DNA from: Arthrobacter sp. FB24
Lineage (GTDB): Bacteria; Actinomycetota; Actinomycetes; Actinomycetales; Micrococcaceae
Length of the DNA stretch: 64,000 nucleotides
Assembly (NCBI RefSeq): GCF_000196235.1
Contig: NC_008541.1
Location: forward strand, 1,550,001 to 1,614,000
Reading direction: 5' to 3'
The position numbers and the translations under genes were made by a program. The notes under the pieces were generated by a model. It did not search any database and was not told the origin of the DNA. It was given only the letters and a program-made list of their open reading frames with translations. This document shows, piece after piece, positions 36,411 to 61,836 of the stretch (within the stretch, counting starts at the first letter, position 1; the number at the start of each line of letters is the position of its first letter).

Positions 36411-38105
36411 ATGGAAGTTATGGGGGAACTTGCAGCAGCACGAGGGGCGTTGCGGTGGGCCAAAATGGACGCTGCCGCTTCACCCGCGTCTGATGCTTTC
36501 CCCGCGTCGGTGCGCGGTTTGCGAAGTGTTCCCTCCGGGCAGCAGCCGAAGCCGTTAGCGTTCGACGGCGGCGGGTCCGGTGATCTGGACCGGTGCCTTG
36601 CGCTGCTGGAGGCCATCAGTTCGACGGCGGTTCCGGTCGCTGCGGGGATGCGCTTCCGGGAGGCTGCTGACTTCGCTGCCCGGGTGGAGGACATCTCCCG
36701 CGCCGCTGAATATTTGCAGGTGGTTGCTGCCGCGGCTGTGGACCGGTCCCGGCGGGAGGCTATTTATGCCGCTGCACGGGCTGGTGCGGGCCGTGGCGCG
36801 GCGGTTGGCTGGACCACCGGGTGGGGCAACGAGACGGCTGTTCACGGGCCGATCGGCTGGGCGGCCGGAACGGAGGCCCAGGCCGCGGACGCCGGAAGTG
36901 GCGCGGCTGAAGAGATACCTGCGGCAATGCCGAAGACCTGCGATCCGGATCCGGCCGATGACGGGTGCCGGAACACGGCCGAGTTCCTCCGTATGAGGCT
37001 GCGGATCGGTGCCGGCGAAGCCCGCCGCCGGCTCGCCCTCGCCGAAGCCGTGCTGCCCCGGACCGGGATCACCGGCCACCCCCAAGAACCGGAACGGCCC
37101 GAACTCGCCGCGGCCGTCGCATCCGGGTCCGTGGGCTCCCGGCCCGCGACCATCATCACCCTCGCCCTGGACCGGGTCCGGCACCACGCCCCCGAAGACA
37201 CCACGGCCCGGATGGAACACGCCCTAACCCGCACCGCGGCAGAGCACGACACCGATTTCGTGACCCGCATCGCCCGGCAGTGGACAGAGGCGATCGACCA
37301 GGACGGCAGCGAACCCTCCGAGGAGGAACTCCGCCACCGGCAGGGCGTGTTCATCCGGAAACCCCGCCGCGGACTGTTCCACGTGGAATTCTTCGCCACC
37401 CCCGACCAGTACGAACCCCTCCTGACCGTGATGAACACCGCCACCAACCCCCGCACCCAACCAGAAGCGGCTGAAGGCACCGACGGAACCATTAGCGGCG
37501 AGGGCGACCTGGACCGGCGGACCCGGCCCCAGCAACTCCTGGACGGCCTCGTCGGCGCCGCCAAAACCGCCCTCGCCACCGGAAACCTCCCCGCTGCCGG
37601 CGGCCTGCGTCCCCAGGTCATGGTCACCATCGACTACCGCGACCTCCTCGACACACTCGAACAGGGCACCCCAGGCACCCCGGGCACCGGCTCGTTCGCG
37701 TTCACCGGCCCCGTCACTGCGTCCACGGTCCGGAAGATCGCCTGCGACGCCGACATCATCCCCGTCCTCCTCGGCAGCCAGGGCCGCATCCTGGACATCG
37801 GCCGCACCACCCGGATCTTCCCGCCCCACATCCGCAAAGCCCTCACCGCCCGCGACCAGGGCTGCGCCTTCCCGGGCTGCACCATCCCCGCCCCCTGGTG
37901 CGAAGCCCACCACACCACCTACTGGTCACACGGCGGAACCACCAGCACCGAGAACGGCACACTGCTCTGCTCCCATCACCACCACCTGATCCACAAAGAG
38001 CAATGGCACATCCAGGTCAAAACCGGGATCCCCTGGTTCATCCCGCCACCCCACATCGACCCACACCAACAACCCCAAAGAAACCGCTACTTCAGACTCG
38101 AGTGA
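36411..38105 (+). CDS. DUF222/HNH endonuclease-signature protein (13E12 family)
   Basis: A 564-aa protein. The DUF222 helical region covers most of the length, with FRRPR-like RKPRRGLFHVEFFATPDQYEPLLTVMNTATNPRT and GLRPQVMVTIDYRDLL. A C-terminal HNH motif follows: DQGCAFPGCTIPAPWCEAHHTTYWSHGGTTSTENGTLLCSHHHHLIH. These proteins occur in many copies in actinobacteria; the nuclease role is predicted, not proven. The second half has very high third-position C use, denser than its neighbours. CAGAGT lies 6 nt before the ATG. It may be a mobile or repeated family member. Confidence 0.88.
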   Translation: MEVMGELAAARGALRWAKMDAAASPASDAFPASVRGLRSVPSGQQPKPLAFDGGGSGDLDRCLALLEAISSTAVPVAAGMRFREAADFAARVEDISRAAEYLQVVAAAAVDRSRREAIYAAARAGAGRGAAVGWTTGWGNETAVHGPIGWAAGTEAQAADAGSGAAEEIPAAMPKTCDPDPADDGCRNTAEFLRMRLRIGAGEARRRLALAEAVLPRTGITGHPQEPERPELAAAVASGSVGSRPATIITLALDRVRHHAPEDTTARMEHALTRTAAEHDTDFVTRIARQWTEAIDQDGSEPSEEELRHRQGVFIRKPRRGLFHVEFFATPDQYEPLLTVMNTATNPRTQPEAAEGTDGTISGEGDLDRRTRPQQLLDGLVGAAKTALATGNLPAAGGLRPQVMVTIDYRDLLDTLEQGTPGTPGTGSFAFTGPVTASTVRKIACDADIIPVLLGSQGRILDIGRTTRIFPPHIRKALTARDQGCAFPGCTIPAPWCEAHHTTYWSHGGTTSTENGTLLCSHHHHLIHKEQWHIQVKTGIPWFIPPPHIDPHQQPQRNRYFRLE

Positions 38106-58616: not shown

Positions 58617-59090
58617 ATGGGCAATGTCCTAGCCGGCTTTAAGAAGAACCGCACCAAGATCTGGGTCGGCGCGGTGACGCTGCTGCTGGTTTTCTACCTG
58701 GTGGTGTCCTTCCAGCGGTCCGTACTGCTCCTCGCGGACCCCAATCCCGTGGCAAAGGCCATTGGTGCCGCCTACCTGGTCCTGCCGGTCATCGGGGCCT
58801 GGGCCCTGGTGCGTGAACTGCTGTTCGGCGCACGGACGGAACAGATGGCCAAGGTCCTCGAGGCGGAAGGCGGGCTGCCGGTTGACAACCTGCAGCGCAC
58901 ACCTGCGGGGCGGATTGTGCGCGAATCGGCAGACGCCGAGTTTGAGAAGTACCGGACCGAAGCCGAGGAAGCGCCGGAAGACTGGCGTTCCTGGTTCCGG
59001 CTGAGCTGCGCTTATGACGCCGCAGGCGACCGCAAGCGCGCCCGGGCATCCATGCGTGACGCCCTGAAGCTGTTCCGCCAGGCCGCCTAG
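58617..59090 (+). CDS. Hypothetical membrane protein with TPR-like tail
   Basis: A 157-aa protein. Two TM helices (TKIWVGAVTLLLVFYLVVSF and AIGAAYLVLPVIGAWALVREL), then a soluble part with PAGRIVRESADAEFEKYRTEAEEAPEDWRSWFRLSCAYDAAGDRKRARASMRDALKLFRQ that looks like one TPR-type helical pair. Conserved neighbour of dapB in Micrococcaceae as far as I recall. Its TAG stop shares CTAG with the TAG of the convergent acyltransferase. Confidence 0.8.
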   Translation: MGNVLAGFKKNRTKIWVGAVTLLLVFYLVVSFQRSVLLLADPNPVAKAIGAAYLVLPVIGAWALVRELLFGARTEQMAKVLEAEGGLPVDNLQRTPAGRIVRESADAEFEKYRTEAEEAPEDWRSWFRLSCAYDAAGDRKRARASMRDALKLFRQAA

Positions 59091-60322
59091 CGGATCCCCG
59101 CCCGCCGGTACCGGCCCACTTCATTGGCGGCGTGGGCCACCCACTCCAGCGGCCCCCGCCAGTTGAGCGCTGCCAAGGACCCTCCGATGAGGACGGCGGT
59201 CAGTGCCTGCGCCGCGTAGACGCCTTCGCGGGTCCATCCGGCGGGCAGCGGCTGCAGGTACATGGCGGCCACCAGGCACACATGCGCCGTGTAGAGGGTG
59301 AGGGTTATGGCGCCCGCACCCCGCAGCGGCAGCAGCAGGTCCAGGCTAAGCCATTCGCCCAGCCTCCCGAGGAGCAGGCAGGCGCCCACCACGGCTGCCG
59401 CTACGGCCGAAGTGTGGAGCAGGTCCAGGGTCGTGCCCGAATGCGGGGCGCTCCCTGCCAGCCACCACCAGGAGCCGGACTGCTCCACCCCGGCGAGGTT
59501 CACCTGCAGGAGGCTGTCCAGCGGGTAGCGGGGGTCCGCCAGCTGGGCCCGGAGCGCTTCCTTGCCGCCCCACTCATCCATCATCAGCACCCCCAGCCAT
59601 TTGGCCAGCACGGCCACCACGGTCCCGCCGACAAGCAGGAGCACCTGGACGGGCGCCTTCGTCAGTGCCAGCCGGCCGATGACCAGCCCGATCAGCAGAT
59701 AGCTCATCCACTGCAGGACGGGGTAGTACCCGGTCAGGAAAATGTCGCCCAGCAGGCGGCCCGGCGTGGTGAGGTCGTCCCAGCTGGGGTTGTGGCCCAG
59801 CTGCAGAGGCGGCGAAGGGGCCAGGAGCCAAGGCCGCAGCAGGTAGGCCAGCACCGGCGAGCCCAGTACCCAGGCGGCAGCCAGTGCACAGAGCGGTTTG
59901 ATGCCGAGGCCAATGAACGGCAACACACACAGGAACAACACGGCGTAGTGGACCAGGATCACCGCGACGTTGACGTCCAGCCCGCCCAGGAAGAGCCCGA
60001 CGACGGCGATCACGAGGGCGCGGAGCGCTATGCCGCGGCGTGCGCCGCTCAGTTCCTGGCCTTGCGGCGGACGCTGCTTTCCGGTGGACAGGGCAAGTCC
60101 GATGCCGGCCAGCACGGCAAACAGCGCGGCCGCACGCCCCGAGAAGGTCAGGCCGATCCACGTGGGCGTCAGCTGCGCGTTTGCTTCGAACGTGGGAAGC
60201 AGGTGGGTGGCCATCATGCCAAGAAGTGCCAGCCCCCGGGCCGCGTCGACTCCGGTGAGCCTCGTTGTCGTGCCGGTGCCTTTGGCAGTCCGCGAGGGGG
60301 AAGCAATGCCACGGGAGGTCAT
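59087..60322 (-). CDS. Membrane acyltransferase-like protein (DUF418/heparan-alpha-glucosaminide N-acetyltransferase-like)
   Basis: A 411-aa protein with about ten TM helices. TRLTGVDAARGLALLGMMATHLLP at the N-terminus is the hallmark opening (R-x-x-x-x-D-x-x-R-G-L-A) of this family. VNVAVILVHYAVLFLCVLPFIG and PVLQWMSYLLIGLVIGRLAL follow, then helices to YTAHVCLVAAMYLQPLP. Likely acylates a cell-envelope molecule; donor and acceptor unknown. It starts 40 bp from a LexA-type box shared with the divergent small gene, so it might also be affected by it. Confidence 0.85.
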   Translation of the reverse strand: MTSRGIASPSRTAKGTGTTTRLTGVDAARGLALLGMMATHLLPTFEANAQLTPTWIGLTFSGRAAALFAVLAGIGLALSTGKQRPPQGQELSGARRGIALRALVIAVVGLFLGGLDVNVAVILVHYAVLFLCVLPFIGLGIKPLCALAAAWVLGSPVLAYLLRPWLLAPSPPLQLGHNPSWDDLTTPGRLLGDIFLTGYYPVLQWMSYLLIGLVIGRLALTKAPVQVLLLVGGTVVAVLAKWLGVLMMDEWGGKEALRAQLADPRYPLDSLLQVNLAGVEQSGSWWWLAGSAPHSGTTLDLLHTSAVAAAVVGACLLLGRLGEWLSLDLLLPLRGAGAITLTLYTAHVCLVAAMYLQPLPAGWTREGVYAAQALTAVLIGGSLAALNWRGPLEWVAHAANEVGRYRRAGIR

Positions 60323-60355: not shown

Positions 60356-60384
60356 TTGTATTCGAATATATGTTCGAATAGCAT
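60356..60384 (+). promoter_or_regulatory. Promoter TTGTAT-17 bp-TAGCAT containing a LexA-type box
   Basis: -35 TTGTAT (60356-60361) and -10 TAGCAT (60379-60384) are separated by exactly 17 bp, and the ATG follows after 6 nt (leaderless). The spacer is nearly filled by TCGAAT-ATAT-GTTCGA. Confidence 0.7.
60362..60377. promoter_or_regulatory. LexA (SOS) box
   Basis: TCGAAT-ATAT-GTTCGA differs at one base from the actinobacterial SOS consensus TCGAAC-N4-GTTCGA. The wider inverted repeat TATTCGAA/TTCGAATA is perfect. Its position between -35 and -10 is the classic repressor position. Confidence 0.72.
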
Positions 60385-60390
60385 CGGTGT

Positions 60391-60849
60391 ATGAACGATG
60401 CGCCGGAACGCCGAATCCAAGAACGCCGAATCCAAGAACGCCGAATCCAAGAACGCCGAATCCCAGAACGCCAACTCCCGGAACGCCGAATCCCGGAACG
60501 CGAGACGTCCCCTGGCCCGCTCAAGGCGATGAGCCCCGGCGTGGTGGACTATCTCTTTCGGCAGCTGGTGGCCGGAAACCCGGCCGAAGATATCCAGTGG
60601 GGGAGAGAGGGCGTGGCCCTGTCCGCCCAGCCGCCCGGCGCCGAGTTGGCGCGGCGGCTCTCTGAATGCGACCTTGAGGCCCTCACGCCCACAGAGCTGT
60701 TCCACTACGTCCGTGCCGCCCAGCGGCTGGCCTCGTGGGCGGAGGCGCTGCGGGAGGATGCTGTTGCCCGCTACTGCGGTGCGCCCGGCCCGGAATCGGC
60801 AGGCCGCGAGCCGGCGGAGCCGGGACCGGCCCGCCGCACTGACAAGTGA
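60391..60849 (+). CDS. Unrecognised small protein under LexA-type control
   Basis: A 152-aa protein. Residues 6-35 are six ERRIQ/ERRIP-type pentapeptide units coded by 15-bp DNA repeats. The middle (about 45-115) contains VVDYLFRQLVAGNPAEDI and ELARRLSECDLEALTPTELFHYVRAAQRLASWAEALREDAVARYC, which resembles the first helices of DUF222/HNH (13E12) proteins, but there is no HNH part. The tail is Glu/Pro/Arg-rich. No TM or signal peptide. Not recognised; DNA-damage role inferred only from the promoter. Confidence 0.65.
   Translation: MNDAPERRIQERRIQERRIQERRIPERQLPERRIPERETSPGPLKAMSPGVVDYLFRQLVAGNPAEDIQWGREGVALSAQPPGAELARRLSECDLEALTPTELFHYVRAAQRLASWAEALREDAVARYCGAPGPESAGREPAEPGPARRTDK
60406..60495 (+). 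repeat. Six tandem 15-bp repeats inside the small gene
   Basis: Units of GAACGCCGAATCCAA: the first three are identical, and the next three vary at a few positions (GAACGCCGAATCCCA, GAACGCCAACTCCCG, GAACGCCGAATCCCG). A seventh unit is partial. Copy number likely varies among strains. Confidence 0.9.
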
Positions 60850-60927: not shown

Positions 60928-61836
60928 ATGGCTGACACTTCCGCGAATAACCCTGCTTTTGGCACCCTCCTGACCGCCATGGTCACGCCGTTCACTGAGG
61001 ACGGCAAAGTGGACTACCAGCAGGCGGCGGAACTGGCCGTAAAGCTTGTCGACGACGGCTGCGACGGCCTGGTCGTCACCGGCACCACGGGAGAAACCTC
61101 CACCCTCACCGACGAGGAGAACGTGGGCATGTTCCGTGCGGTCAAGGAAGCTGTCGGCGGCCGCGCCGCCATCATCGCCGGCACCGGAACGAACGACACC
61201 GCCCACTCCGTGCACCTTTCCAAGCAGGCAGCCGAGGTTGGCGTCGACGGTCTGTTGCTCGTCACGCCGTACTACAACAAGCCCAGCCAGGCCGGCGTGC
61301 GCGCCCACTTTGAGACCATTGCGTCCTCCACCGACGTTCCCGTGATGCTTTACGACATCCCCGGCCGTTCCTCAATCCAGATTGCTCCGGACACCATGAT
61401 CCGTCTTGCCGAGCACCCGAACATCGTTGCGGTCAAAGACGCCAAGGCCGATTTCGCCGCCGCCACGCGGGTCATGGCCCAGACCGACCTCCTGTTCTAC
61501 TCCGGAGACGACGGACTGACCCTGCAGTGGATGGCGATGGGCGCCGTGGGGCTCGTGGGCGTCACCACCCACGTCGCCACCCGCCGGTTCCGTGAGTTGA
61601 TCGACGCCGTGAACGCGAACGACCTGGGCACCGCCCGGAAGATCAATTTTGAACTCGAACCTGTCATCCGGGCCACGATGACCCGCGTGCAGGGGGCCGT
61701 TGCGGCCAAGCAGATTCTTAAATGGCAGGGAGTCCTGCCCAACTCGGTTGTCCGTTTGCCCCTCGTGGAGCCGGACGAAGCTGAGATCGCAATCATCCGC
61801 GAGGATTTGGCGGAAGCAGGCATGGTCTTTTCCTGA
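60928..61836 (+). CDS. dapA: 4-hydroxy-tetrahydrodipicolinate synthase
   Basis: A 302-aa TIM-barrel aldolase condensing pyruvate and aspartate semialdehyde. TAMVTPFTEDGKVDY, VTGTTGETSTLTDEE, IAGTGTNDTAHSVHLSKQA, LVTPYYNKPSQAGV with catalytic Tyr, VMLYDIPGRSS, and the Schiff-base Lys near residue 170 in IVAVKDAKADF. Normal length. Followed 42 bp later by rnj. Confidence 0.96.
   Translation: MADTSANNPAFGTLLTAMVTPFTEDGKVDYQQAAELAVKLVDDGCDGLVVTGTTGETSTLTDEENVGMFRAVKEAVGGRAAIIAGTGTNDTAHSVHLSKQAAEVGVDGLLLVTPYYNKPSQAGVRAHFETIASSTDVPVMLYDIPGRSSIQIAPDTMIRLAEHPNIVAVKDAKADFAAATRVMAQTDLLFYSGDDGLTLQWMAMGAVGLVGVTTHVATRRFRELIDAVNANDLGTARKINFELEPVIRATMTRVQGAVAAKQILKWQGVLPNSVVRLPLVEPDEAEIAIIREDLAEAGMVFS

Follow-up and report, generated by a model that had tools for sequence, protein, structure and literature searches.

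A small gene encoding a 152-aa protein was identified directly behind a LexA-type operator at positions 60391-60849 (+ strand, the stop codon ending at 60849) of the window, which here means the whole analyzed stretch of 64,000 nucleotides (positions 1550001-1614000 on contig C4 of a 5.07 Mb genome). We consider it fairly probable that this is a LexA-repressed, leaderless and lineage-specific gene for a helical binding module that derives from DUF222 proteins and has no nuclease. The operator has been kept almost unchanged in more than 100 related genomes. The conserved core of the protein is under purifying selection, and its C-terminal half shows homology to a module at the N-terminus of DUF222 proteins.

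The predicted promoter consists of a -35 element TTGTAT (60356-60361, +) and a -10 element TAGCAT (60379-60384, +; consensus TAnnAT). The 17-bp spacer between them is made up of the 16-bp operator TCGAATATATGTTCGA (SOS box, 60362-60377, +) and a single A, and six nucleotides (CGGTGT) separate the -10 element from the ATG at 60391. A generic sigma-70 promoter scan, which needs 9 of 12 matches, called no promoter here and the terminator scan was likewise empty; the promoter claim thus rests on conservation and not on a consensus score. Among the 116 loci of the genus, the TTG letters of the -35 element were kept in 116, 115 and 116 loci, and the T, A, A and T columns of the -10 element in 116, 116, 113 and 116 loci.

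The operator displayed one mismatch to the consensus TCGAACATATGTTCGA. With up to three mismatches, this consensus matched two sites in the 64-kb window (this one with one mismatch, the other with three), while 0.05 were expected from 100 shuffles. In the whole genome 23 such sites were detected against six for the reversed control; the best were three sites with one mismatch, and no site had fewer. A looser pattern, CGAACRNNNGTTCG with two mismatches, was uninformative (46 sites, 46.1 expected). A chance match of the box was ruled out by the shuffles, the reversed control and the conservation across genomes.

The ORFs beside ten box sites of the genome were read, and nine proteins were scanned with Pfam. 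These included LexA (S24 and LexA DNA-binding domain), a divergently encoded LysM protein and RecA, as well as an S24 peptidase, a radical-SAM protein, a DUF6504 protein and three proteins without a family. The gene of the S24 peptidase, which we take to be of the UmuD type, follows an identical 16-mer in reverse orientation, and the recA and lexA boxes of this genome carry three mismatches each to TCGAACATATGTTCGA. Since boxes precede lexA, recA and the umuD-like gene, TCGAATATATGTTCGA belongs to the class of boxes found at the SOS genes of this genome.

Further SOS-type sites were observed in the same genome. A second orphan SOS-type gene is present in two copies (L175:1161-1490 on contig C2 and L177:1161-1490 on contig C4), which encode 110-aa proteins without a Pfam match and have their ATG 10 nt after the boxes TCGAATATATGTTCTA and TCGTGCATATGTTCTA. 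At G000:C4:2612170-2612451 (L174, L176), two SOS-type boxes lie 266 bp apart, close to two ORFs, one of which matches DUF6504 while the other (140 aa) has no family.

The gene was detected in all 61 genomes of the genus, the genome studied here included, in a first search of 99 genomes. A second search, of 395 genomes, listed 77 from the genus, and 76 of them had the gene. Combined, with second-search genomes already in the first set counted once (61 + 55), 116 of the 117 distinct genus genomes listed carry the gene. The exception is G462, the sole genus member without it as judged from the order of the second search's list, outside which lie 287 genomes that gave no match. All 116 genus loci were retrieved for the comparison of operators. 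The tblastn step of the comparison missed L112 and L115 (the latter from genus g34), which were read separately. The 16-bp operator was letter-identical to TCGAATATATGTTCGA in 105 of the 116 genus loci and one base off in the other 11. Most columns from -7 to +18 carried about 2 bits of information, whereas the 28 columns between -40 and -13 averaged 0.14 bit. The ATG was located 13 nt after the box in 70 loci and 14 nt in 46, that is 6-7 nt after the -10 element, and was in frame with the core in 115 of 116. In the remaining locus (L103, from genome G030, which is rated 92% complete with 6% contamination), the promoter-proximal ATGs were out of frame.

Diverged relatives were found in two other genera, g36 (n = 9) and g47 (n = 1). 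All ten possessed an SOS-type box with 0-3 mismatches to the consensus and an in-frame ATG 13 or 14 nt after it, so that every locus compared that has the gene, 116 from the genus and 10 from the two other genera, retained an operator. In G462 no site in the whole genome fitted the promoter pattern with two mismatches or fewer, and its best dapA was preceded by neither such a box nor such an ORF. The same was seen in G104 (genus g36), both for the pattern at this cut-off, although diverged g36 boxes might escape it, and for the stretch before the best dapA. In the public-genome scan (80 of the 125 loci), the organisms were Arthrobacter, Pseudarthrobacter, Paenarthrobacter and one Micrococcaceae bacterium. 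No match to the gene was obtained in phages, and the single match in plasmids was a 1.35-Mb Arthrobacter replicon. With the operator letter-identical in 105 of 116 loci, the gene is probably an established component of the response to damage in a very common group of soil bacteria.

This gene is very probably real and under SOS control. In the undamaged cell, LexA would sit on the operator that fills the -35/-10 spacer and would block RNA polymerase; upon damage, RecA-driven cleavage of LexA would free the promoter. The 6-7 nt between the -10 element and the ATG is the distance that a leaderless transcript requires, so that the mRNA is expected to begin at the ATG or within 1-2 bases of it and the gene is probably leaderless. 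A leaderless SOS gene has a precedent in lexA itself in M. tuberculosis, according to one paper (PMC2897130). A preliminary description had given the layout of this promoter (TTGTAT, 17 bp, TAGCAT, the box, the ATG 6 nt on), which proved exact to the base, as did its count of one base from the SOS consensus. Its prediction of LexA-type control is strongly supported by the conservation and by the same-class boxes at lexA, recA and the umuD-like gene, while the leaderless start it predicted is in agreement with the fixed spacing of the ATG. It had also named a box not conserved upstream of orthologues as evidence against the proposal; this comparison was run, and the box was kept in every genus locus.

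The protein can be divided into three parts. The N-terminal tract contains a 15-bp tandem repeat of 6.4 copies (60406-60501, +), a minisatellite within the coding region that yields ERRIQ-type repeats and agrees with the repeat N-terminus described before. In the 112 of 116 orthologues with an exact match to the MSPG motif, the tract before it varied in length between 2 and 144 aa; the tract is probably unstructured, and whole orthologues ranged from 75 to 239 aa. It is followed by a conserved 87-aa core (residues 43-129; 60517-60777, +), which runs from just before KAMSPGVVD to RYC, and by a C-terminal tail. The core appears to be mostly helical. Its AlphaFold model, calculated from an alignment of the window core with 46 of 80 related sequences (80 of the 125 loci), contained helices at 10-21, 45-53 and 61-90, of which the last two were better predicted than the first. 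The mean pLDDT was 77.7, which is moderate confidence, and the first 40 residues fell in blocks of 51-66.

No significant Pfam match was obtained for the protein. At E 10 one family was matched by the 152-aa protein, and this was not DUF222 (PF02720); at E 1 the 29 core sequences (the window and 28 of 50 picked sequences) matched seven families, DUF222 not among them. Pfam called no HNH domain in the 152-aa protein or in the 29 core sequences. Neither a LysM domain (Pfam) nor a transmembrane segment was found, the top 19-residue Kyte-Doolittle mean being 1.25 across 125 orthologues. There was no match in NCBIfam or PADLOC and none in PHROGs at E 0.1. Foldseek returned no PDB relative with E below 4 (best E 4.1), and a sequence search of solved structures gave nothing (best E 0.64). 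Matches to Enterochelin_N (one of the 29 core sequences, E 0.0019) and tPilZ (five of 29, best E 0.014) were taken as chance. The product would be a small soluble helical protein without a catalytic domain that acts by binding, and a non-catalytic binder is the probable reading. It would most likely serve as a non-catalytic adaptor or antagonist whose conserved helices bind a partner involved in DNA metabolism or in the control of nucleases.

A relation to DUF222 proteins was detected by profile comparison. The stretch from QPPGAELARRL to RYCGA (60628-60783, +) matched the N-terminal module of DUF222 proteins when profiles of 17 stand-alone sequences and six DUF222 modules were compared (hhalign 97.2%, E 3.1e-11, 52 columns); because the six templates were chosen for matching, this score measures likeness and is no blind test. 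Protein and profile searches also hit much longer frames, about 550-860 aa, from other genera and families. Sixteen of 17 such long frames were scanned with Pfam (L276 was left out), and all 16 were DUF222 proteins, five of them with a called HNH domain. In these proteins the matching region, such as GPELASMIADVEFASLDDTETIEYLKAASRLAAWAESRRIGAMHRF in L114, lies for the most part ahead of the Pfam DUF222 model and extends into its beginning. An SOS-like box was seen in two of the 12 module-bearing DUF222 frames of the same family, both from genus g34 (L114 and L115), with the ATG 13 nt downstream, which is the layout of the small gene. No convincing SOS-like box was present in the other ten of these 12 or in the five frames of other families. 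It is very likely that the small gene derives from the DUF222 module. It may be an SOS-controlled DUF222 gene that was cut down to its N-terminal module, or both may come from an ancestral SOS-controlled module. The C-terminal half of the core has a common ancestry with this module. Many DUF222 proteins carry an HNH nuclease; in the small protein both the DUF222 body and the nuclease are absent.

The genome itself also encodes DUF222 proteins, and one possible, if doubtful, explanation is that the small protein, as a copy of the DUF222 module without the nuclease, exerts control in trans over DUF222/HNH nucleases and caps, titrates or recruits them during SOS. This would agree with the homology of the core to the module, with DUF222 matches in all 78 genus genomes searched and with the SOS-type promoter that the gene has in common with the two full-length DUF222 genes of g34. 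A weak hint of the module was also seen in one of the genome's own DUF222 frames, L009 (6.0 bits, E 0.006 in a nine-sequence HMMER search; blastp E 0.02). However, the module was not clearly recognizable in any of nine own DUF222 frames (hhalign probability of about 0.3% at most), so that there is no more than a faint sign of a DUF222 partner in the same cell, and no SOS box was found in the loci of twelve own DUF222 matches (best 11 of 16 bases). One DUF222 match lies elsewhere in the window, in a 579-aa frame (36900-37856), and its locus has no SOS box. The preliminary description had likened the core to the first helices of DUF222/HNH proteins without the nuclease. The likeness was borne out by the profile match and by the DUF222 identity of all 16 scanned long frames, and had to be narrowed in three respects: the match is confined to the C-terminal half of the core, the module mostly lies before the Pfam DUF222 model, and the genome's own DUF222 proteins carry no clear copy beyond the one weak hint.

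An equally doubtful explanation is an SOS inhibitor of cell division or a cell-cycle checkpoint, the counterpart in this lineage of SulA, YneA, SidA or DivS, which would bind a division or replication protein and delay division. Small lineage-specific SOS-controlled proteins are often of this kind, and the protein has no membrane segment, as is also the case for SulA. However, the usual actinobacterial position of a division inhibitor is divergent from lexA, and in this genome that position is already occupied by the LysM protein gene (L180). For comparison, Rv2719c is described as a LexA-controlled cell-wall hydrolase acting on division (PMC4181829). The DUF222 ancestry also points toward nucleases and away from division.

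The box might instead serve a neighbouring gene, which we regard as highly improbable. Its start about 40 bp from the box, a divergent gene judged by eye to be acyltransferase-like occupies 59087-60322 (- strand), and downstream of the small gene is dapA (60928-61836), presumably, as named from its sequence. Among the 114 loci in which dapA was found, 66 have its start 62-238 nt beyond the end of the small gene, but in the other 48 it is at least 300 nt away. In 17 of the 116 loci, all of which have the box, the retrieved stretch yielded no divergent gene of this type, and the box lies inside the forward -35/-10 pair with the spacing to the forward ATG kept. dapA was also downstream in all eight g36/g47 relatives that could be placed. 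G462, which lacks the small gene, has two dapA-like genes (L291 and L293) with 88% and 69% identity to the dapA of the window. In three loci (L247:3340-4200, L205:3292-4164 and L100:1887-2729), a gene judged by eye to be carbon-nitrogen hydrolase-like is located between the small gene and dapA.

Selection on the small gene itself is purifying in the core. Compared with the nearest relative, dN and dS were 0.005 and 0.16 for the core, 0.16 and 0.49 for the N-terminal tract, and 0.108 and 0.110 for the C-terminal tail, which indicates no constraint on the tail. The least probable explanation, a decaying DUF222/HNH stump or spurious ORF that retains an old SOS promoter, could draw on a homology limited to the front of DUF222 proteins, a low-complexity N-terminus of variable length, the unconstrained tail, the copy with out-of-frame ATGs (G030/L103) and the one loss (G462), but is rejected for the core, present in all but one of the genus genomes listed, by a median dN/dS of 0.11 (103 of 114 pairs with the own copy unsaturated; median pN/pS 0.23 over pairs), by a variability at codon positions 1, 2 and 3 of 0.13, 0.09 and 0.40 (115 sequences, L103 excluded from both counts), the third being three to four times the first and second, and by 38 invariant columns in the 29 diverse core sequences. 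The N-terminal tract and the C-terminal tail could be dispensable.

The preferred reading is an SOS-controlled binding module derived from a nuclease-linked family, and a new DNA-damage response factor, as first proposed, is plausible. More tentatively, the freed module behind its SOS promoter could be a genus-wide effector that controls nuclease activity at the time of damage, or a checkpoint, in trans. A new N-terminal half that is near-invariant, KAMSPGVVD[FY]LFRQLVxGExxEDxQWxxEG, would then have been added to the module, and the protein would be a new kind of small SOS regulator. LexA-linked HNH/13E12 genes are already in print. The top results from the open-licence PMC literature included no paper that dealt with this gene or with the LexA regulon of Arthrobacter-type bacteria, and none that described a DUF222 module without the nuclease retained across a genus behind a frozen SOS promoter. 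One paper on PafBC, another actinobacterial damage regulator, reportedly mentions Arthrobacter (PMC6789036).

Small SOS genes confined to one lineage are already familiar. SulA, YneA, SidA, DivS and ChiZ are small lineage-specific SOS effectors encoded directly behind a LexA box, and a membrane segment or LysM domain is a feature of DivS, ChiZ and YneA. The protein described here, set beside this group by description only, is likewise a small protein directly behind a LexA box in one lineage. It differs from the group in having no significant Pfam match, no LysM and no membrane segment.

A second comparison is offered by the 13E12 family, the members of which we take to be DUF222 proteins. In M. 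tuberculosis, some 13E12-family HNH genes were placed in a hypothetical repair system under LexA control (PMC4181829), and five putative HNH endonucleases were induced by mitomycin C in a RecA-dependent manner (PMC8151990). The small gene resembles the LexA-regulated 13E12 HNH proteins in the class of its operator, given as TCGAAC(N)4GTTCGA (PMC4181829), and in that relatives of its module sit in DUF222 proteins, some with HNH; unlike them, it has neither the DUF222 body nor the HNH, and its product is 75-239 aa long, compared with 554-753 aa for the module-bearing DUF222 frames of the family. A further comparison is with L114 and L115 of g34, which share the SOS-like box with the ATG 13 nt on, but are about 590 aa long with a DUF222 domain and carry the homologous module at about residues 150-220; L114, unlike the small gene, had no dapA or acyltransferase-like match in the retrieved 5 kb. 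As a stand-alone module of about 90 conserved residues, the small protein would make it testable what DUF222/HNH proteins do in the damage response.
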